Assembly: GCA_949298065.1 (NCBI GenBank)
Contig: CASFUZ010000002.1
Coordinates: 79,185-143,184, forward strand
Source: an uncultured Pseudomonadota bacterium
Lineage (GTDB): Bacteria; Pseudomonadota; Alphaproteobacteria; RF32; CAG-239
Direction of reading: 5' to 3'
Length of the DNA stretch: 64,000 nt
In this document: piece by piece, positions 50,102 to 62,867 of the stretch
Layout of the letters: the number at the start of each line of letters is the position of its first letter
Position numbering within the stretch: position 1 is the first letter of the stretch
Made by a program: the position numbers and the translations under genes
Notes under the pieces: generated by a model
Seen by the model: the letters and a program-made list of their open reading frames with translations, nothing else
Database searches by the model: none
What the model was told of the DNA's origin: nothing

Positions 50102-50791
50102 TTAAGACAACCAAACGGCGTCTTTAAGCTTTTTTTCCAAAAAAGTTTTGTGTGCTTCCAGCTCCTCTTCTGTCGGCGGAAAAGAGCGCGGCTCGCGATA
50201 AGTTTTGTTCTCATGACTTTCAAAACTTGCGGTTTTCTTGGTTTCCTGCTTGCTTTCCAAGCCCATTGTCGGTTCTTCACCGCCCAAAAGCTCCAAATAA
50301 ACCTTAGCCAACAACTCGGCATCAAGCAAAGCGCCATGGTTTGTACGACTGCTGTTATCAACCCCGAAACGCTTACACAAAGCATCCAAATTATTTCTGG
50401 CACCCGGAAACATATTACGCGCAATTTCCAAGGTATCAACCACTCTATCCCATGGAAGTGTGGGCTTTCCGAGCTGCTTGAGTTCATAGTTCACAAAGTT
50501 AATATCAAATTGAGCGTTATGCGCAACCAAAATACTGTCATCTCCGACAAACTCCAGCCACTCATCGGCCACTTTATCAAAAGTCGGAAAATCCTTCAAA
50601 AATTCATAAGACAAACCGTGAACTTTATAAGCATCTTCCGGCACTTCTTTTTCAGGGTTAATATATTGATGATACGTTTTGCCTGTCGGCATATGGTTAA
50701 TAAGTTCAACTGCGCCGATTTCAACCAAACGCTCGCCTTCTTCGGCATTAAAACCCGTAGTTTCCGTATCAAAAACAATCTCTCTAACCAT
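50102..50791 (-). CDS. dnaQ: DNA polymerase III epsilon subunit (3'-5' proofreading exonuclease)
   Basis: DnaQ proofreads replication errors within Pol III. The 229-residue protein has ExoI VFDTETTGF (catalytic Asp, Glu), the family motif HGLSYEFL, ExoII VAHNAQFDINFV, and ExoIII with NHGALLDAELLA. A C-terminal tail (about residues 180-225) is rich in Glu and Lys, for alpha-subunit contact. ATG 50791 is taken, 2 bases after the coaE stop; ATG 50800 inside coaE is an alternative. The pair coaE-dnaQ is typical of origin-proximal alphaproteobacterial DNA. Confidence 0.94.
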   Translation of the reverse strand: MVREIVFDTETTGFNAEEGERLVEIGAVELINHMPTGKTYHQYINPEKEVPEDAYKVHGLSYEFLKDFPTFDKVADEWLEFVGDDSILVAHNAQFDINFVNYELKQLGKPTLPWDRVVDTLEIARNMFPGARNNLDALCKRFGVDNSSRTNHGALLDAELLAKVYLELLGGEEPTMGLESKQETKKTASFESHENKTYREPRSFPPTEEELEAHKTFLEKKLKDAVWLS

Positions 50792-50793
50792 TT

Positions 50794-51375
50794 TTAGCAT
50801 TCCAATCCATCAACAATACTAACCATATCGGCAAAAACCAAATTTTGCGGCCTTCCCGTATCCACCACCACATCAGCCAACAAAACTTTGGCCTTGTTGC
50901 TTAACTGTACGTTGTTAATCTTTTCAAAATCTTCAGCCGAAATCTTATCACGCTCCATTACGCGTTTTTTCTGCGTTTCATAATCCACATCGGCAACAAT
51001 AATGCAATCGCAATAAATATCCCATCTCATTTCAAACAACAAAGCAACATCTAAGAAAAACAAATCATTGCTTTGTGCGTGTTTATGAATAACTCTTTTA
51101 AGATAGCGCCGCAAAAAAGGATGAATAAGCCCCTCTAGCTCCTTAAGACGAGCATTATCATTAAAGACAATATTACGCAAAGCTCTTTTATTAACTTTTC
51201 CGTTTTCTACCACTTGCGGAAAATGCTGTTCAATAACTTTAATAAAATCTTTTTTAAAATAGAGACGGCGAACCCACCCGTCCACATCATAAACACAATA
51301 TCCCAAACGTCTGACCATAGAAGCCAAAGTCGTTTTTCCGCAACCTATAGAACCTGTGATAGCTGCTAATTTCAT
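50794..51375 (-). CDS. coaE: Dephospho-CoA kinase
   Basis: CoaE carries out the last step of coenzyme A synthesis. The 193-residue protein has the P-loop ITGSIGCGKTT, the DVDGWVRRLY substrate region (usually DAD), HPFLRR, DVALLFEMRW (family DIPLLFE), and the Arg-containing lid RVMERDKISAEDF. ATG 51375 follows AAGGA and matches the family start. aroE, often upstream, is replaced by the putative replication origin. Confidence 0.94.
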   Translation of the reverse strand: MKLAAITGSIGCGKTTLASMVRRLGYCVYDVDGWVRRLYFKKDFIKVIEQHFPQVVENGKVNKRALRNIVFNDNARLKELEGLIHPFLRRYLKRVIHKHAQSNDLFFLDVALLFEMRWDIYCDCIIVADVDYETQKKRVMERDKISAEDFEKINNVQLSNKAKVLLADVVVDTGRPQNLVFADMVSIVDGLEC

Positions 51376-51596
51376 AAAAAATTCCTTAAAATCAAACTCC
51401 TTACTCACTTATACACAAACAAGCCAAAATCTGTGCATAACTAAGCTCTCTTGCATATTTATACAAACTAATCACCACAATGTAAAATCCAATATACAAC
51501 TTTACGCACAGGAGCATATTTTTTCGCACAGAGGTTGATAAAAAAACTTATCAACAAAATACTCAATTTAAAGTTTACAGAATCAAGAAAAACAAA

Positions 51597-51675
51597 GTTA
51601 ACGATTCGTTAATAATTCTTAAATTCCGTTAACAATCTTATTAACATTCTTTTAACTTTTGGATATCTCTGTTAA
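51597..51675. promoter_or_regulatory. Helically phased TTAA array, CtrA-like sites with GANTC
   Basis: TTAA occurs at 51597, 51608, 51618, 51628, 51640, 51651 and 51672, spacings 11, 10, 10, 12, 11 and 21, so all lie on one face of the helix. Two pairs are exact TTAA-N7-TTAA CtrA boxes (51597-51611 and 51640-51654). The first is TTAACGATTCGTTAA, with a GANTC methylation site (GATTC) inside; a second GANTC lies just upstream near 51580. Confidence 0.6.
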
Positions 51676-51782
51676 TAAAAACTTATACACATAAACAGCA
51701 GGGATATACAAATAACAACTAAAATTTTAAAAATATTTATATGGGGCTTTTTGACTGTGTATAAAAATCAAACAACATTTAA

Positions 51783-51811
51783 TTGACTTTCATTCATTTA
51801 AATAATATAAA
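51783..51811 (+). promoter_or_regulatory. Promoter of rho
   Basis: TTGACT (51783-51788) and TATAAA (51806-51811) are 17 bases apart, a near-consensus sigma70-type promoter. It gives a leader of about 85 bases before the rho ATG and lies next to the last DnaA box. Confidence 0.65.
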
Positions 51812-51901
51812 ACAGACATACAGTAATTCTAATAATACTATACAGAGGGTTATTTCCCTTTTCTTAATTACTTTCACACCCAATAATATATCAAGGTTAC
51901 A

Positions 51902-53155
51902 ATGCATTTAAAAGATTTAAAGCAAAAATCTCCCAAGGAGTTATTAACTCAAGCGGAGGAATTAGGAATAGAAGACGCATCATCTATGCGTGTTCAGGAT
52001 TTAATTTTTGCCATTATGAAAAAAGTGGCATCTGATGATCAAACCATTTATGGCGAAGGAACGATAGAAGTTTTGCAAGATGGCTTTGGTTTTTTGCGTT
52101 CTGCTGAATCCAATTATTTGGCCAGCCCTGATGATATTTATGTATCACCGGCTCAAGTTAAAAAATTTGGTCTGCGCACCGGAGATACGGTTGAAGGCGA
52201 AATTCGCGGCCCGAAAGATAATGAACGTTATTTTGCTCTAACCAAGATTAACACCATTAACTTTGAAGATCCCGAAAAATCAAAACTTCGTGTAAATTTT
52301 GATAACCTAACCCCGCTTTATCCGACCAAAAAACTAGACTTTGATATCATCTGCGGCGAAAAAGACTATACCACGCGCATTATTGACCTGATTGCCCCGC
52401 AAGGCAAAGGTCAACGCGGCTTAATTGTTGCGCCGCCGAGAACAGGTAAAACCGTAATGTTGCAAAATATTGCGCACGCCATAGCAACAAATCACCCTGA
52501 AGTTTATTTAATGGTTTTATTGATTGATGAACGTCCGGAAGAAGTAACGGATATGAGCCGTTCAGTTAAAGGTGAGGTTATTTCTTCCACCTTTGATGAG
52601 CCGGCTGCGCGCCATGTTCAGGTTGCCGAAATGGTTATTGAAAAAGCCAAGCGTTTGGTAGAAACCAAAAAAGATGTTGTCATCTTGCTTGACTCCATCA
52701 CACGTTTGGGCCGTGCATATAATACGGTTATTCCTTCATCTGGTAAGGTTTTAACCGGAGGTGTTGACGCCAATGCTCTGCAAAGACCAAAACGCCTGCT
52801 TGGTGCAGCTCGTAATGTAGAGGAAGGAGGTTCTTTAACAATCATTGCCACAGCTTTGATTGATACGGGTTCTCGTATGGATGAGGTTATTTTTGAGGAG
52901 TTCAAAGGAACAGGTAACTCCGAAATCATATTGGATAGAAAGTTAACCGATAAGCGTCTCTTCCCGACCATAGATATTACGCGTTCAGGCACTCGTAAGG
53001 AAGAGTTGTTGGTAGACAAAGCCACATTAGCCAAAATGTGGGTATTGCGCCGTGTTTTGATGCAAATGGGTATGACTGACGGTATGGAATTTTTATTGGA
53101 TAAACTTAAACAATCCAAGGATAATGAGGACTTTTTCAATACAATGAATTCTTAA
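51902..53155 (+). CDS. rho: Transcription termination factor Rho
   Basis: Rho is the hexameric RNA helicase that ends transcription. The 417-residue protein has the N-terminal [18 protein letters not shown] helix domain, the RNA-binding cold-shock-like domain ([31 protein letters not shown]), Walker [13 protein letters not shown], the [10 protein letters not shown] motif, Walker [17 protein letters not shown], and the arginine-finger region. AAGG precedes the ATG. It ends at a strong terminator. Confidence 0.97.
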
Positions 53156-54898: not shown

Positions 54899-56242
54899 AT
54901 GGATAATCAAACAATTTATGCCCTGTCAACGGTTTATGGCAAATCTGGTGTGGCAGTCATTCGTGTTTCTGGAGCAAAAGCAAAAGAAGCCGTTGCCAAG
55001 CTGACAAACTTGAAAGAAAAGAGCTTAAAACCGCGTTATGCATATTTTACGGATATCAAAGACATTGTTTCCCGTGAAACATTGGATAAATGTTTGCTGC
55101 TTTATTTTAAGGCCCCTCATTCTTTTACGGGAGAAGATATTGTAGAATTTCAGACTCACGGCTCTAAGGCGGTAATTGCTTCAGTTCTAGAGAACCTAAG
55201 CAAAATTCCGGACTTTCGTATGGCTAAGCCCGGCGAATTTTCCAGACGTGCTTTTCACAACGGCAAAATGGATTTAACAGAGGCCGAAGGTTTAGCAGAC
55301 CTGATTGATTCTGAAACATCTGAACAACAAAAATATGCCATGCGCCAAATGGAAGGCGGTTTAAAAAATCTGTATGATGGCTGGCGAGAAGAGCTGATTA
55401 AGATAATGGCCTACCTTGAGGCTTATATAGATTTTCCGGATGAGGACATTCCTCAAGACTTGGTTGATAAACTTTTGAACGATGTATTTAAACTTAAAAG
55501 CGCCATTTCTGAGCACTTGAACACTGATTCAATCGGCGAAAGATTACGTGAGGGTTTTCGTGTTGTTATCGTTGGACCGCCGAATGCCGGCAAATCAAGT
55601 TTGTTGAACACTGTTGTCAATCGTGAAGCAGCAATCGTATCATCCATTGCCGGAACCACACGAGACGCTGTAGATGTTCATTTGGATATTAAAGGTTATC
55701 CCGTAATGTTTACGGATACGGCAGGCATTCGTGAAGTAGAAGAAGAAATTGAGAAACAAGGTATAGAAATTGCTTTCCGCAAAATCGCTGATGCTGATTT
55801 GGTTCTTTGTTTGTTTGATGCTTCAAAAGACTCTGTTCAAATCTTTGATAATATTAAAAATTCTTTTAAAAACAAAGCGATATATGTTGCGAACAAATCT
55901 GATAATTTAACTTTTGAACAATGTTCAAATCTCAAAAAACAAGGTTGTGTTGTTATCTCAGCAAAACATAAACAAGGTATTGCCGACTTAATGGAAGTTA
56001 TATATCAGCAAATCAAAGAAAGATTTACGGCTAATTCTAATTTGCTTATCACACGTCAGCGTTATCGCGAGGCTTTAGCCGAAACTTTGGATAATCTGGA
56101 GCGTTTTTCTTTTGATAAAGAGATAGAGCTTTCTGCAGAGGATATCCGGCTTGCTGCAAGAGGCTTGGGTAAGATTACCGGCCGCATAGAAGTTGATGAT
56201 ATATTAAATAAGATTTTCGGAAGTTTCTGCATCGGAAAATAA
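54899..56242 (+). CDS. mnmE: tRNA modification GTPase MnmE
   Basis: MnmE works with MnmG to make cmnm5U34 in tRNA. The 447-residue protein has the N-terminal folate-binding domain (IYALSTVYGKSGVAVIRVSG), a helical domain, the G domain with GPPNAGKSSLLN (G1), GTTRD (G2), DTAGI (G3) and NKSD (G4), and the C-terminal FCIGK with the catalytic Cys. The ATG pair at 54896/54899: the second is better spaced from AAGGAG. A parS-like site lies inside at 55066-55081. Confidence 0.96.
   Translation: MDNQTIYALSTVYGKSGVAVIRVSGAKAKEAVAKLTNLKEKSLKPRYAYFTDIKDIVSRETLDKCLLLYFKAPHSFTGEDIVEFQTHGSKAVIASVLENLSKIPDFRMAKPGEFSRRAFHNGKMDLTEAEGLADLIDSETSEQQKYAMRQMEGGLKNLYDGWREELIKIMAYLEAYIDFPDEDIPQDLVDKLLNDVFKLKSAISEHLNTDSIGERLREGFRVVIVGPPNAGKSSLLNTVVNREAAIVSSIAGTTRDAVDVHLDIKGYPVMFTDTAGIREVEEEIEKQGIEIAFRKIADADLVLCLFDASKDSVQIFDNIKNSFKNKAIYVANKSDNLTFEQCSNLKKQGCVVISAKHKQGIADLMEVIYQQIKERFTANSNLLITRQRYREALAETLDNLERFSFDKEIELSAEDIRLAARGLGKITGRIEVDDILNKIFGSFCIGK
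55066..55081. other. parS-like site inside mnmE (one mismatch)
   Basis: TGTTTCCCGTGAAACA differs from the parS consensus by one base. It is read in frame as VSRET, as are the two perfect sites in mnmG and rsmG. Confidence 0.6.
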
Positions 56243-56363: not shown

Positions 56364-58220
56364 ATGAGCGATAAAGATAATAAATTTGATGTCATTGTTG
56401 TCGGCGGCGGACATGCCGGTTGTGAGGCTTGCGCGGCAGCAGCCAGAATGGGTGCAAAAACCGCGTTAATCACACATCGCATTGACCGCATTGGCGAGAT
56501 GTCTTGCAATCCGGCAATCGGTGGTTTAGGCAAAGGACATTTAGTCAGAGAAATTGACGCGCTTGATGGCTTAATGGGTAAAGTCATTGATAAGGCGGGC
56601 ATACAATTTCGTATGTTAAACGCCTCCAAAGGACCGGCAGTAAGAGGCCCTCGCGCGCAAGCAGATAGAGAACTTTATCGTAAATATATGTTAGAGGCTT
56701 TGCAAGAGCAGGAAAATTTAACTCTGATTGAAGCGGCGGTTGAGGGGTTATTGATAAAAGATAATAACGTTGTCGGCGTAACCTTGGCAGACGGAACAGC
56801 CTACGAAGCCGGAGCTGTTGTTTTAACCACCGGCACTTTTTTGAACGGCATTATGTTCACGGGTCATGTTGCCACGCCGGGAGGTCGTGTTGGAGATGCT
56901 GCTTGTGTCGGTATAACACCGTATTTAAAGTCTTTGGGGCTCAAAGTTGGTCGTCTGAAAACGGGAACCCCTGCCCGCCTGAACGGTAAAACCATAAATT
57001 GGGATATTTTGGAAACCCAAAGCGGCGATGAAAATCCCGAGCCTTTTTCTTATTTGACGGAAAAGATTACCAATCCGCAAATAGAATGCCATATCACACA
57101 AACCAATGAGGAAACGCATAAAATAATCAGAGATAACTTTTCCAAATGCGCATTGTTTTCCGGTTTGATTACCGGAGTTGGTCCGAGATATTGCCCGAGC
57201 ATAGAAGACAAACTTGTTAAGTTTGCCGACCGCACCAGCCACCAGATTTTTCTGGAGCCGGAAGGTTTGAATACGGATGTTGTTTATCCGAACGGTATTT
57301 CAACCTCTCTGCCTGCAGATGTTCAGGATGCCTTTATTCATACGATGAAGGGGTTGGAGAATGTTGAAATTTTGCGTTTTGCTTATGCTATTGAATATGA
57401 CTATGTTGATCCTCAAGAGCTCAGCCATACGCTTGAGGTTAAGAAGGCTCCTAACCTATTTTTAGCAGGACAAATTAATGGTACAACCGGTTATGAAGAA
57501 GCCGCGGCACAAGGTTTACTGGCAGGCGTAAATGCAGCCTTAAAAGCTGAAGGCAAAGGGCGTGAATTTTTCATTGACCGTAGCAATGCCTATATTGGTG
57601 TAATGGTAGATGATTTAATCACCAAAGGCGTGGATGAGCCTTATCGTATGTTTACTTCGCGTTCTGAATATAGATTATTTTTGCGAGCAGACAATGCGGA
57701 TGCGCGTTTAACGGAGCAAGGCTATGAAATCGGCTGTGTCGGCGAACATAGATACACTGTATTTAAAGCCAAAAGAGATAAAATTCGCCACTATCGCAAA
57801 TTGAGCGAAAGTCTGACAATCACACCGAACGAGCTTGAAAAATTCGGCATTCATACCAAAAAGGATGGCACACGCAGAACAGCCTTTAATGTAATGTCTT
57901 ATGACGGTGTTTCACGTGAAACAATCAACCAAATTTTTCCCGAGCTGTCAGATATTCCGGCAGATGTCTACGAACAAATTGAAATTGATGCGCGCTATGC
58001 CGGATACATCAAAAGACAAATGGCTGATATTGAAGTCTTCAAAAAAGATGAAAAGTTAAAGCTGAGAGAAGATATAGATTATTCAAAAATAGGAGGTTTA
58101 TCCCGAGAGATGGTAGCCAAGTTGAGCAAGGTTCGTCCTGCAACAATTGGCGAAGCATCGCGAATCCCCGGGGTAACACCGGCCGCCATAACAGCAGTTT
58201 TGGGCTATGTAAAGAGGTGA
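56364..58220 (+). CDS. mnmG: tRNA uridine-5-carboxymethylaminomethyl modification enzyme MnmG
   Basis: MnmG is the FAD subunit of the MnmEG complex. The 618-residue protein starts with the FAD-binding [11 protein letters not shown] and continues [80 protein letters not shown] and [16 protein letters not shown], then a helical C-terminal domain that binds MnmE and tRNA. A perfect parS site lies within it. It follows mnmE and precedes an unusual HD-HD-PHP cassette. Confidence 0.97.
57908..57923. other. Perfect parS site inside mnmG
   Basis: TGTTTCACGTGAAACA equals the parS consensus bound by ParB. It is encoded in frame as VSRET and lies about 4 kb from parB and 6 kb from the putative origin. 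Confidence 0.92.
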
Positions 58221-58223
58221 TGT

Positions 58224-58841
58224 ATGACTTGTCCAAGCATAAAGCAAGCACTGGATTTATTTGATGAAGGTTTGGTCAAAATGCGAACGGAGCAGCCGCG
58301 CTTTGCTTTTTATTTTGAAAAATCTTACCGAAGCCATTGTTGTTTGGTTGCTTGTTGTGCGGAGATGATAGCCTCAAGATTACAATATCTGGATGTTCAG
58401 AAGGCTTATATATTTGGTTTACTGCATGATTATGGTAAGATGATATGCGATGCTGACAGCAAACAATATTTTCATGGTCTGACCGGTTATAATGAGATGA
58501 ATAAACTTGGTTTTGATGAGGTAGCAAAAATATGCTTAACGCATACCTTTCCAGACAAAGAGTTCAAATATACGGAATATTCATATCCAGAAATGAGAAA
58601 AACAAAAAAAATATTATCATCAATAGAATATGATGATTATGACCGTTTAATACAATTATGTGATTTACTTGTAACCGGTATGAGCTTTGGTACGATTAAA
58701 GAACGTATGGCTTATGTAAAGGACAAATATAGACTCCCGACAATACTCATCAAAAAACGCTATCGCCAGGCTTTAAGATTAAAAAACTATTTTGATAGGC
58801 GTTGCGGTTGCGATATTTATCGCTTATTGGGGGTAAACTAG
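58224..58841 (+). CDS. HD-domain hydrolase, first of a tandem pair
   Basis: A 205-residue protein with the HD phosphohydrolase signature: SHCCLVACCAEMIASRL (His), AYIFGLLHDYGKM (HD), and a distal Asp in DRLIQLCDLL. HD enzymes cleave phosphoesters of nucleotides or nucleotide signals; the substrate is unknown. It lies 3 bases after mnmG and is a diverged copy of the next gene, sharing GLLHDYGK, GLTGYNEM/GLVGYQEL, CLTHTFPDK/CLSHTFPGK and the IYRLLGVN/VYEILGLK end. Confidence 0.82.
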   Translation: MTCPSIKQALDLFDEGLVKMRTEQPRFAFYFEKSYRSHCCLVACCAEMIASRLQYLDVQKAYIFGLLHDYGKMICDADSKQYFHGLTGYNEMNKLGFDEVAKICLTHTFPDKEFKYTEYSYPEMRKTKKILSSIEYDDYDRLIQLCDLLVTGMSFGTIKERMAYVKDKYRLPTILIKKRYRQALRLKNYFDRRCGCDIYRLLGVN

Positions 58842-58844
58842 CCT

Positions 58845-59474
58845 ATGCTAATACTTTCTCTAAAATGTCCTGATATGCGTGAGGCGATGCGCCTGTGGTG
58901 GGATGGATTAAGGTATCGGCGCGAAAATGATAATTTCGGCTATACAGACGAATATATTTTTCACACACAAGGCGTTGCTTTTGCTTCCCGCGCCATTGCT
59001 GCAAACATAAAAGAGGTAAATCCTGAGACGGCATATATTTGCGGTCTTTTGCATGATTATGGGAAAAAATATAATGAGAAGAAGATAGGTCGTTTTCATG
59101 GGCTTGTTGGTTATCAGGAGCTCATATCAATGGGCTGGGAGCGCCCTGCCCGCACTTGTTTAAGTCATACTTTTCCTGGAAAAAATATTGATGTTGAAGA
59201 TTATCCTTCTTATCCCAAGGCCGATATTCTTGAGGCTCGGGAAATATTGAAAAATTGGGAATACGATGTTTACGATCGTATTGTTCAGTTCACAGATAGG
59301 CTATTTGAAGGTCTGTCAATGATACCCTTTGAAAAAAGAGCTCAAGCCATAGGCCAAAGATATAATTTACCCCAAGATCTTGTTCAAAAACTAATCAATA
59401 CGGGAATGGGGTTGAAAGCAGAATTAGATGATTTGTGCCATAAAGATGTATATGAAATTTTGGGGTTAAAATAA
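58845..59474 (+). CDS. HD-domain hydrolase, second of a tandem pair
   Basis: A 209-residue HD-domain protein with His in FHTQGVAFASRAI, the HD pair in YICGLLHDYGKK, further His in FHGLVGYQEL and LSHTFPGK, and Asp in DRIVQFTDRL. It starts 3 bases after the preceding HD gene and ends overlapping the PHP gene by one base (TAATG), so all three are coupled. The metal ligands look intact in both copies. Confidence 0.82.
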   Translation: MLILSLKCPDMREAMRLWWDGLRYRRENDNFGYTDEYIFHTQGVAFASRAIAANIKEVNPETAYICGLLHDYGKKYNEKKIGRFHGLVGYQELISMGWERPARTCLSHTFPGKNIDVEDYPSYPKADILEAREILKNWEYDVYDRIVQFTDRLFEGLSMIPFEKRAQAIGQRYNLPQDLVQKLINTGMGLKAELDDLCHKDVYEILGLK

Positions 59475-60439: not shown

Positions 60440-61069
60440 ATGAAAAATTTTATGGACACATACAATGTTTCACGTGAAACATTTGAGCGCTTAAAAACTT
60501 ACGAGGCCTCTCTTCGCGAGTGGCAAAAAAAGTTTAATCTGGTCAGCAACGCATCTTTGGATGATGCTTGGAACAGACATTTTTTAGACTCTGCTCAGCT
60601 GTTTAAATATATTCCAAATTCTGCCAAGAATGTCGTTGATTTTGGCTCTGGGGCTGGTTTTCCGGGAATGGTGCTGGCAATAATGGCGGCAGAAAAAACA
60701 CCGTATTTAAATTTCTTTTTGATTGAAAGTATTACTAAAAAAACACTGTATTTAAATGAGGTGAAGAATCTTACCGGAATAAATAATGTAAAAATCATCA
60801 ATGACCGCATTGAAAACATCAAAATCCCGTCTGTTGATGTCATAACCTCAAGAGCAATGTGCTCACTTAAAGATTTGCTTTTTTATGCATCAAAGTTTTC
60901 ATCAAAAAAAACGCTTTGTATTTTCCCCAAAGGAAAAAAATACAAAGAAGAAATTGCAGAGGCTCAAAAGAGCTGGACTTTTACTTATGAAACTGTGCCG
61001 AGCGAACAAAGCGATGAAGGCGCAATTTTATTGATAACCGAAATCAAAAAACTTAAAGGAGTTAAATAA
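60440..61069 (+). CDS. rsmG: 16S rRNA (guanine527-N7)-methyltransferase RsmG
   Basis: RsmG (GidB) methylates G527 of 16S rRNA. The 209-residue protein has LREWQKKFNLVS, DDAWNRHFLDSAQL, the SAM-binding VVDFGSGAGFPGMVLAI, LNEVKNLTGI, and TSRAMCSLKDLLFYA. The start may be ATG 60440 or 60452. A perfect parS lies just after it (codons for NVSRETF). The stop overlaps parA by one base. Confidence 0.95.
   Translation: MKNFMDTYNVSRETFERLKTYEASLREWQKKFNLVSNASLDDAWNRHFLDSAQLFKYIPNSAKNVVDFGSGAGFPGMVLAIMAAEKTPYLNFFLIESITKKTLYLNEVKNLTGINNVKIINDRIENIKIPSVDVITSRAMCSLKDLLFYASKFSSKKTLCIFPKGKKYKEEIAEAQKSWTFTYETVPSEQSDEGAILLITEIKKLKGVK
60466..60481. other. Perfect parS site at the start of rsmG
   Basis: TGTTTCACGTGAAACA, identical to the site in mnmG, is in frame as VSRET near codon 10 of rsmG and about 600 bases before parA. 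Confidence 0.93.
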
Positions 61070-61848
61070 TGCCAAGAATTATTGCTATAGCGAATCGTAA
61101 AGGCGGTGTTGGCAAAACCACCACCACGGTTAATGTGGCAACCGCAATGGCTGCTGCCGGAAAAAAAGTTTTGGTAATTGATCTTGACCCTCAGGGCAAT
61201 GCCACAACTTCAATGGGTATCAACAAAACCGGCAGAATGGCATCATCTTATGAGGTTCTTCTTGGCGAAAAAAGAATTAACGAAGCCGTTGTTTGGACAG
61301 AGATTCCAAACTTCTCTCTGGTGCCCTCTTCCGCGGACCTTGCCGGTGCCGAGGTTGAATTGGTTGATGTAGAACACAGAGAATTTGCTTTGCGCAATGC
61401 TTTAGGCAAAGATGTCATAAACTATGACTATGTTTTGATAGATTGTCCGCCGTCTTTAAGCTTGGTAACCATCAATGCTCTGGTTGCCGCAGATGCTGTC
61501 ATTGTACCATTGCAATGCGAATTTTTGGCTCTTGAGGGTATTACGGATTTGATTCGCAACATCAATCAAATTAAACGTGCTTTCAATCCAAAGTTAGAGC
61601 TTCAAGGTGTAGTCTTGACCATGTATGACAAGCGTAACAATTTGTCTCAAATGGTTGAAGACGATGTCAGAAATTTCTTTGGCAAAAAAGTATACCAAAC
61701 CGTCATTCCGAGAAATGTGCGTGTTTCTGAGGCTCCCTCTCACGGCAAACCTGTTTTGATTTATGATTTCAGATGTCCGGGCTCACAAGCCTATATTAGC
61801 CTAACCGGCGAAGTTTTGAAAAGAGAGAAGGAATTATTGGCATGTTAG
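61069..61848 (+). CDS. parA: Chromosome partitioning ATPase ParA
   Basis: ParA forms DNA-bound dimers that move ParB-parS complexes. The 259-residue Walker-type protein has the deviant Walker A ANRKGGVGKTTTTVN, DLDPQGNATTSMGI, Walker B DYVLIDCPPSLSL, and PSHGKPVLIYD at the end. It overlaps rsmG by one base and parB by seven (ATGTTAG), so the three are translated together. Confidence 0.96.
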   Translation: MPRIIAIANRKGGVGKTTTTVNVATAMAAAGKKVLVIDLDPQGNATTSMGINKTGRMASSYEVLLGEKRINEAVVWTEIPNFSLVPSSADLAGAEVELVDVEHREFALRNALGKDVINYDYVLIDCPPSLSLVTINALVAADAVIVPLQCEFLALEGITDLIRNINQIKRAFNPKLELQGVVLTMYDKRNNLSQMVEDDVRNFFGKKVYQTVIPRNVRVSEAPSHGKPVLIYDFRCPGSQAYISLTGEVLKREKELLAC

Positions 61849-62867
61849 AAAATTCAAATTTGGATGATTTAGATATTTTGAGCGATACTCCCAAACACGA
61901 AGAAACATCACACAACGGCAAAAGAAAGAGTTTGGGCCGTGGCTTGGGAGCTTTGTTAGGTGATAGCGAATTTAATCTGGATGAGGCCTTAAATGATACA
62001 CCGACCCAAACCGTTCAACCAGCTGATGATACTGTTGCCATAGATTCTCTTTATCCGAGCCCTTTTCAACCGCGCAAGGATTTTGATGAAGAAGCGCTTA
62101 ATGCTTTGGTTGAATCAATCAAGGAAAAAGGCGTTTTGCAGCCTTTGCTGGTTCGTCGCAAAGGTGATAAATATGAGATTATTGCCGGAGAGCGTCGTTG
62201 GCGTGCCTCCAAACTTGCCGGACTAAAGTCTGTTCCCGTGATTGTCAAAGAGATGGACGACAAAGAGGTCTTGGAAGTCGCTTTGGTTGAAAACCTCTTG
62301 CGCGAGAATTTATCTGCCATAGAAGAAGCCGAGGGCTTTCAGCGCTTAATAGATGAGTTTTCGCACACGCAGGAAGCTTTGGCACAAATTGTCGGAAAAT
62401 CACGCAGTCATGTTGCCAATACTTTGCGCTTATTATCCCTGCCCGATTCGGTAAAAGTAATGGTGCGTGAGGGTAAATTATCTGCCGGACATGCCAGAGC
62501 CTTGGTTGGTCTGGAAAATGCAGAAGCCTTAGCAAAACAGATAATTGCAAAAGATTTAAATGTCCGTCAGGTTGAGGAGCTCGTTGCCAAGCAAAAAAAT
62601 CCCGAGCCCAAAGAACCCAAAAAGGCAAAAGATGAAGATATTGTGGAGATAGAAAAAGATTTGAATAAAAATCTTGGCCTCCGTATCAAAATTTCGCCAA
62701 GCAAACAAGGCGGGGGTAAAGTTGTTTTGCAATATGCCTCTGCGGCAGAACTTGATATGATTATTGATATCTTGGAGCAAAAACGCAAAACCGGTATGAT
62801 ACCGACCCCGCAAAGCGAAGCTCCTGCACCGACAAATGAAAAATTTACGATGAAGATAATTGATTAA
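61842..62867 (+). CDS. parB: Chromosome partitioning CTPase ParB
   Basis: ParB binds parS and spreads as a CTP-dependent clamp. The 341-residue protein has KRKSLGRGLGALLGD (ParA-contact N-terminus), SPFQPRKDFDEEALNALVESI, the CTP/Arg patch GERRWRASKLAGL, VENLLRENLSAIEEAEGF, the HTH region QIVGKSRSHVANTLRLLSLP, SAGHARAL, and a C-terminal dimerisation domain. With three parS-type sites nearby it forms a complete ParABS segregation locus. Confidence 0.96.
   Translation: MLENSNLDDLDILSDTPKHEETSHNGKRKSLGRGLGALLGDSEFNLDEALNDTPTQTVQPADDTVAIDSLYPSPFQPRKDFDEEALNALVESIKEKGVLQPLLVRRKGDKYEIIAGERRWRASKLAGLKSVPVIVKEMDDKEVLEVALVENLLRENLSAIEEAEGFQRLIDEFSHTQEALAQIVGKSRSHVANTLRLLSLPDSVKVMVREGKLSAGHARALVGLENAEALAKQIIAKDLNVRQVEELVAKQKNPEPKEPKKAKDEDIVEIEKDLNKNLGLRIKISPSKQGGGKVVLQYASAAELDMIIDILEQKRKTGMIPTPQSEAPAPTNEKFTMKIID

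Follow-up and report, generated by a model that had tools for sequence, protein, structure and literature searches.

Genes and features at the locus

The window, by which we mean the whole 64,000-nucleotide stretch of DNA analysed here, contains an intergenic region between coaE and rho in which TTAA motifs recur at regular spacing among DnaA boxes (Table 1). The coaE open reading frame is listed from a GTG and has an in-frame ATG near 51375. On the other side of the intergenic region the gene order is rho-mnmE-mnmG-rsmG-parA-parB, in which mnmE, mnmG, rsmG, parA and parB were named from sequence only. Between mnmG and rsmG (58224-59474), two successive open reading frames of about 205 aa carry similar HD-type motifs (LLHDYGK).

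Cumulative GC skew of the contig (C2) was lowest between 130 and 135 kb, in the 5 kb bin that also holds the TTAA series (at 130,782). The intergenic DNA is AT-rich, and the 520 bases upstream of rho contain five DnaA boxes, against 0.1 expected. On the strength of the skew turn, the flanking DnaA boxes, the neighbouring genes and three parS-like sites, the region is very likely the chromosomal oriC of a small-genome alphaproteobacterium, which supports the parallel with the Caulobacter origin drawn in an earlier note on this DNA.

Table 1 Features in and around the putative origin, with positions counted from the first base of the window.
Feature	Position	Strand	Basis or remark
dnaQ, DNA polymerase III epsilon subunit	50102-50800	-	TIGR01406, 287.5 bits
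coaE, dephospho-CoA kinase	50794-51408	-	TIGR00152, 127.5 bits
Intergenic region, putative oriC	51376-51901		GC-skew minimum, DnaA-box cluster
DnaA box TTATACACA	51409-51417	+	sequence
DnaA box TTATGCACA	51432-51440	-	sequence
DnaA-like box TTATCAACA	51548-51556	+	sequence
Second GANTC (GAATC)	51580-51584		23 bases upstream of the box 1 GANTC
CtrA-type box 1, TTAACGATTCGTTAA, half-sites 1 and 2	51598-51612		exact TTAA-N7-TTAA
GATTC (GANTC, CcrM-type site) in box 1	51603-51607		sequence
CtrA-type box 2, TTAA-N6-TTAA, half-sites 3 and 4	51619-51632		sequence
DnaA-box-like TTATTAACA, overlapping half-site 5	51638-51646	+	one mismatch to TTATNCACA
CtrA-type box 3, TTAACATTCTTTTAA, half-sites 5 and 6	51641-51655		exact TTAA-N7-TTAA
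Seventh TTAA, outside the array	51672-51675		TGTGTATAA there in G004 and G005
DnaA box TTATACACA	51683-51691	+	sequence
DnaA box TTATACACA	51756-51764	-	sequence
rho, transcription termination factor	51902-53155	+	TIGR00767, 684.7 bits
parS-like site, one mismatch	55066-55081	+	motif match
parS-like site TGTTTCACGTGAAACA	57908-57923	+	motif match
parS-like site TGTTTCACGTGAAACA	60466-60481	+	motif match
parA and parB	61069-62867	+	ORFs 61069-61848 and 61842-62867, named from sequence

Six TTAA half-sites at helical spacing

TTAA was found at positions 51598, 51609, 51619, 51629, 51641, 51652 and 51672, at steps of 11, 10, 10, 12, 11 and then 20 bases. The earlier note had described seven phased copies; the first six stand and form the array proper (51598-51655), whereas the seventh is weak and lies at 20 bases, not 21. 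We left this last copy out of the array because it is kept in only two of six genus genomes and because two of the relatives, G004 and G005, have a DnaA box, TGTGTATAA, at this place; it is probably an eroded DnaA box rather than an array member.

Both exact TTAA-N7-TTAA boxes that had been pointed out, boxes 1 and 3, were recovered, with no others in the 64 kb window, and the GANTC reported within a CtrA-type box lies wholly inside box 1. The box pair alone is not rare, since shuffles of the whole window gave a mean of 5.5 exact boxes against the two observed; both of these fall inside 58 bases. Dinucleotide shuffling of the 520-base stretch upstream of rho never produced a run of six TTAA copies at steps of 10-12 bases in 4,000 trials. 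Against a background of about 300 kb of one contig, the array was the sole phased TTAA run of four or more.

Conservation within the genus and family

For the genus, we compared six genomes with a readable region upstream of rho, leaving out the seventh, G002, in which a full-length rho match was absent. Over 620 aligned bases, identity to the window ranged from 66 to 98%, and the longest stretch invariant in all six was exactly the 15 bases TTAACGATTCGTTAA. Column permutation gave P = 0.023 for any invariant run of at least 15; the exact coincidence of this run with the predicted box 1 comes in addition to that value. The full strip was present in G001, G003 and G004. All but one of its six half-sites are retained in G005, whereas G006 has boxes 1 and 3 without the middle half-sites. 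Box 2 was at the same positions in G001, G003, G004 and G005 and missing in G006, and the second GANTC showed the same distribution, retained in those four genomes and gone in G006. The DnaA-box-like TTATTAACA was invariant in the genus. Conservation in close relatives, which the earlier note had proposed to look at, was therefore found for the phased array as well as for the composite TTAACGATTCGTTAA.

The family comparison covered 94 regions upstream of rho from 15 genera. These contained 146 exact CtrA boxes (23.6 expected) and 330 DnaA boxes (8.8 expected); TTATTAACA occurred in 55 of the 94 and in 13 of the 15 genera, and the box 3 type, TTaTTAAC-N6-TTAA, in 31. Phased runs of at least four TTAA were found at this locus in eight genera, several of which share near-identical step series (11, 10, 11, 12, 11 in g22 and 11, 11, 10, 12, 11 in g23), and the mean longest run peaked at a step of 10-12 when step windows three bases wide, 5-7 through 21-23, were compared. 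A GANTC lay inside the phased run in four of these genera (g1, g6, g22 and g23), at an offset that varies among them, compared with 0.26 genera expected when spacer letters are permuted, a test that ignores shared ancestry; the runs of the other four (g2, g16, g18 and g21) have no internal GANTC. Among the 94 origins examined, many have no phased run (g4, g24 and most of g3 and g16), so the strip is recurrent, not universal, and, as G006 has also lost its middle half-sites, a continuous strip is not essential.

AT-rich DNA upstream of rho was considered as the cause of such runs and rejected: in 79 rho loci from a named set, mostly outside the family, runs of four were absent and boxes numbered three, of which a near relative contributed two, although this control is weak because many of those genomes are GC-richer.

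Three g16 genomes (G055-G057; loci L142, L143 and L144) have an exact copy of TTAACGATTCGTTAA at a distance from rho, beside DnaA boxes at about locus position 1501 and, in at least one of these genomes, upstream of a plsY-like gene. A moved origin was rejected here: in G057 the GC skew falls through this site without turning and turns at rho, so the copy shows the element in a second role rather than marking an origin. Downstream of position 1501 in L143, TGTCATTCTCGGGC recurs in units that resemble dispersed repeats, and GACCCGAGAATC follows some of them. In a named metagenome bin (L062, CALXRR010000001.1), CGATTCGTTAA upstream of rho abuts a run of three TTAA at 11-base steps.

Regulators encoded in the genome

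A search for ctrA, ccrM and gcrA, as the earlier note had suggested, found CtrA, a CcrM homologue and GcrA encoded in the genome. Neither of the two results that this note had named as refuting its reading, lack of ctrA or ccrM and an array not kept in close relatives, was obtained. CtrA scored 400.9 bits against NF045991 (equivalog cut-off 350). The CcrM homologue has a methylase domain (PF01555) and a RAMA domain (PF18755), each above its Pfam cut-off, and scored 600 bits against NF050803, under the equivalog cut-off of 830. GcrA matched PF07750 at 133 bits, above the Pfam cut-off, and NF050816 at 126 bits, under the equivalog cut-off of 280. For the CckA-ChpT phosphorelay, the ChpT family gave a weak match of 26.1 bits, just above the cut-off of 22.9. 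RAMA matches were found in 120 of 136 family genomes; in G011, GAGTC lies within a box and a RAMA match is absent.

The promoter of ctrA itself has TTAA at steps of 10 and then 11-12 bases, within about 110 bases upstream of the gene, in every genus genome (L041-L048), and in most of them GAGTC lies near this series. The arrangement suggests CtrA autoregulation with a candidate CcrM site near by. At locus L037 (145-1909), ctrA adjoins a divergent open reading frame resembling a flagellar FliI-type ATPase.

A C follows TTAA in 26 of 40 half-sites, and the CtrA consensus from chromatin immunoprecipitation sequencing (ChIP-seq) in Hyphomonas neptunium is TTAA-N7-TTAAC (PMC7200025). We take CtrA to be the likely ligand of the array because TTAAC at 11-base pairing matches that consensus.

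A candidate CtrA array with an embedded methylation site

We interpret the TTAA strip, with a probability of roughly 0.7, as a tandem three-box CtrA array at oriC, which would repress the origin. Spaced about one helical turn apart, the six half-sites would form three CtrA dimer boxes (internal steps of 11, 10 and 11) joined by steps of 10 and 12 bases, and phosphorylated CtrA would coat one face of the DNA between the DnaA boxes. There it would overlap the DnaA-like TTATTAACA and may block DnaA assembly or unwinding. After initiation, the GATTC of box 1 would be hemimethylated, and box 1 would be held by whichever arrives first, CtrA or CcrM, or else GcrA, which binds methylated GANTC; with CtrA on box 1, remethylation of the origin would be delayed.

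The CGATTCG of box 1 matches the GcrA motif YGAKTCK (PMC7987155). We prefer mutual exclusion between CtrA and CcrM/GcrA at box 1 to a tuning of CtrA affinity by methylation, and we hold this preference tentatively, at somewhat less than even odds. On a synthetic promoter, CtrA shields an embedded GANTC from CcrM (PMC5172544), so that the published direction is the reverse of methylation tuning CtrA. A further step, in which one 15-base element would be both CtrA operator and CcrM/GcrA site and competition between repressor and methylase would time the next firing of the origin, is a possibility that we consider rather unlikely.

Alternative readings

A chance accumulation of TTAA, favoured by AT-rich sequence, would agree with the lack of excess of TTAA-N7-TTAA in the window, two per 64 kb, but it is refuted by the shuffles, by the uniqueness of the run in 300 kb of contig and by spacing conserved across genera, and its probability is negligible. 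The strip might instead be a DNA-unwinding element or a set of DnaA-binding repeats, in which not CtrA but DnaA or a nucleoid protein would recognise TTAA. Its place among DnaA boxes in AT-rich DNA and the overlap of half-site 5 with TTATTAACA speak for this; TTAAC with 11-base pairing, which is the CtrA consensus, the similar TTAA spacing seen outside an origin, at the promoter of ctrA, and the absence of a DnaA-box match from box 1 all speak against it, and we regard it as distinctly improbable.

The remaining alternatives accept CtrA as the ligand and differ over the GATTC. Its methylation state could, as the earlier note had inferred, set how tightly CtrA binds box 1 and so tune repression directly, as its position inside the box allows, and origin-near GANTC is hemimethylated for much of the cycle, in about 80% of Caulobacter cells (PMC3973325). 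Against this, the two adenines lie beside the centre of the spacer, where, judged by geometry, the major groove would be turned to the side opposite a head-to-tail dimer, and in the published experiment it is CtrA that excludes CcrM (PMC5172544); direct tuning therefore seems improbable. A CtrA array at oriC might also hold a GANTC that has no part in coupling, being AT-rich spacer filler or serving a separate GcrA function. The runs of four genera that do without an internal GANTC agree with this, as does Caulobacter, where replication control stays normal after ccrM is deleted (PMC3973325). We nevertheless think it less than likely, if clearly possible, as, within the genus, the 15-mer exceeds all other invariant runs in length while other spacers drift, and GANTC recurs at changing offsets in the arrays of four genera against 0.26 expected. 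Weakening all five CtrA sites of the Caulobacter origin disturbed the replication programme only mildly, in culture (PMC4468827), and both this result and the ccrM deletion speak against a large role.

Comparison with known origins and implications

In Escherichia coli, the adenine methylation state of oriC (Dam/SeqA) is tied to the timing of initiation. There SeqA reads hemimethylated GATC, whereas here the methylation site lies within a repressor box.

The origin of Caulobacter crescentus, Cori, has five CtrA sites (PMC1914354, PMC4468827, PMC3973325). As in the origin described here, TTAA-N7-TTAA lies amid DnaA boxes, one of the CtrA sites overlaps a DnaA box, and GANTC is present; the five sites, however, are described as spread over the whole of Cori, in contrast to the single phased strip found here, and it adjoins hemE, whereas our origin lies between coaE and rho. 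We found no description of a conserved GANTC inside a CtrA box for Cori. The origins of Rickettsia and Wolbachia, which likewise belong to small alphaproteobacterial genomes, have zero to seven predicted CtrA sites (PMC1914354), but lie between hemE and a COG1806 gene in Rickettsia and between hemE and a CBS-domain gene in Wolbachia rather than between coaE and rho, and the paper describing them does not mention GANTC or CcrM (PMC1914354), whereas box 1 here holds GATTC. In H. neptunium, a CtrA ChIP-seq peak near ori marks a single site beside the origin (PMC7200025), unlike the three-box strip, and the Sinorhizobium origin is without CtrA sites (PMC4433202).

A likeness to box 1 is seen in an engineered plasmid promoter with a GANTC in each of two CtrA boxes and one between them, which CtrA keeps hypomethylated (Ardissone 2016; PMC5172544); here, GANTC also lies inside a CtrA-type box, but at a putative natural origin. 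The DNA-binding protein MucR, too, occludes GANTC from CcrM (PMC5172544); it is a zinc-finger repressor acting at promoters, and shielding of GANTC is what it has in common with our proposal.

CtrA binding at the origin is already known in Caulobacter, has been proposed in Rickettsia and Wolbachia, and is seen beside the origin in Hyphomonas (PMC1914354, PMC4468827, PMC7200025). The literature searched, which covered few subscription papers, described neither a contiguous array in which a CcrM site is embedded and conserved nor a natural origin with GANTC inside a CtrA box. Two elements are new against that literature: the unbroken strip of phased half-sites, and a CcrM site that is conserved within a CtrA box.

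CtrA-type boxes lie next to rho throughout a family of alphaproteobacteria with small genomes, and often form a phased strip there, which bears on whether replication control by CtrA is ancestral or has arisen repeatedly. With the conserved GANTC in a CtrA box, the competition between CtrA and CcrM that a synthetic promoter has revealed could be examined at a natural origin.
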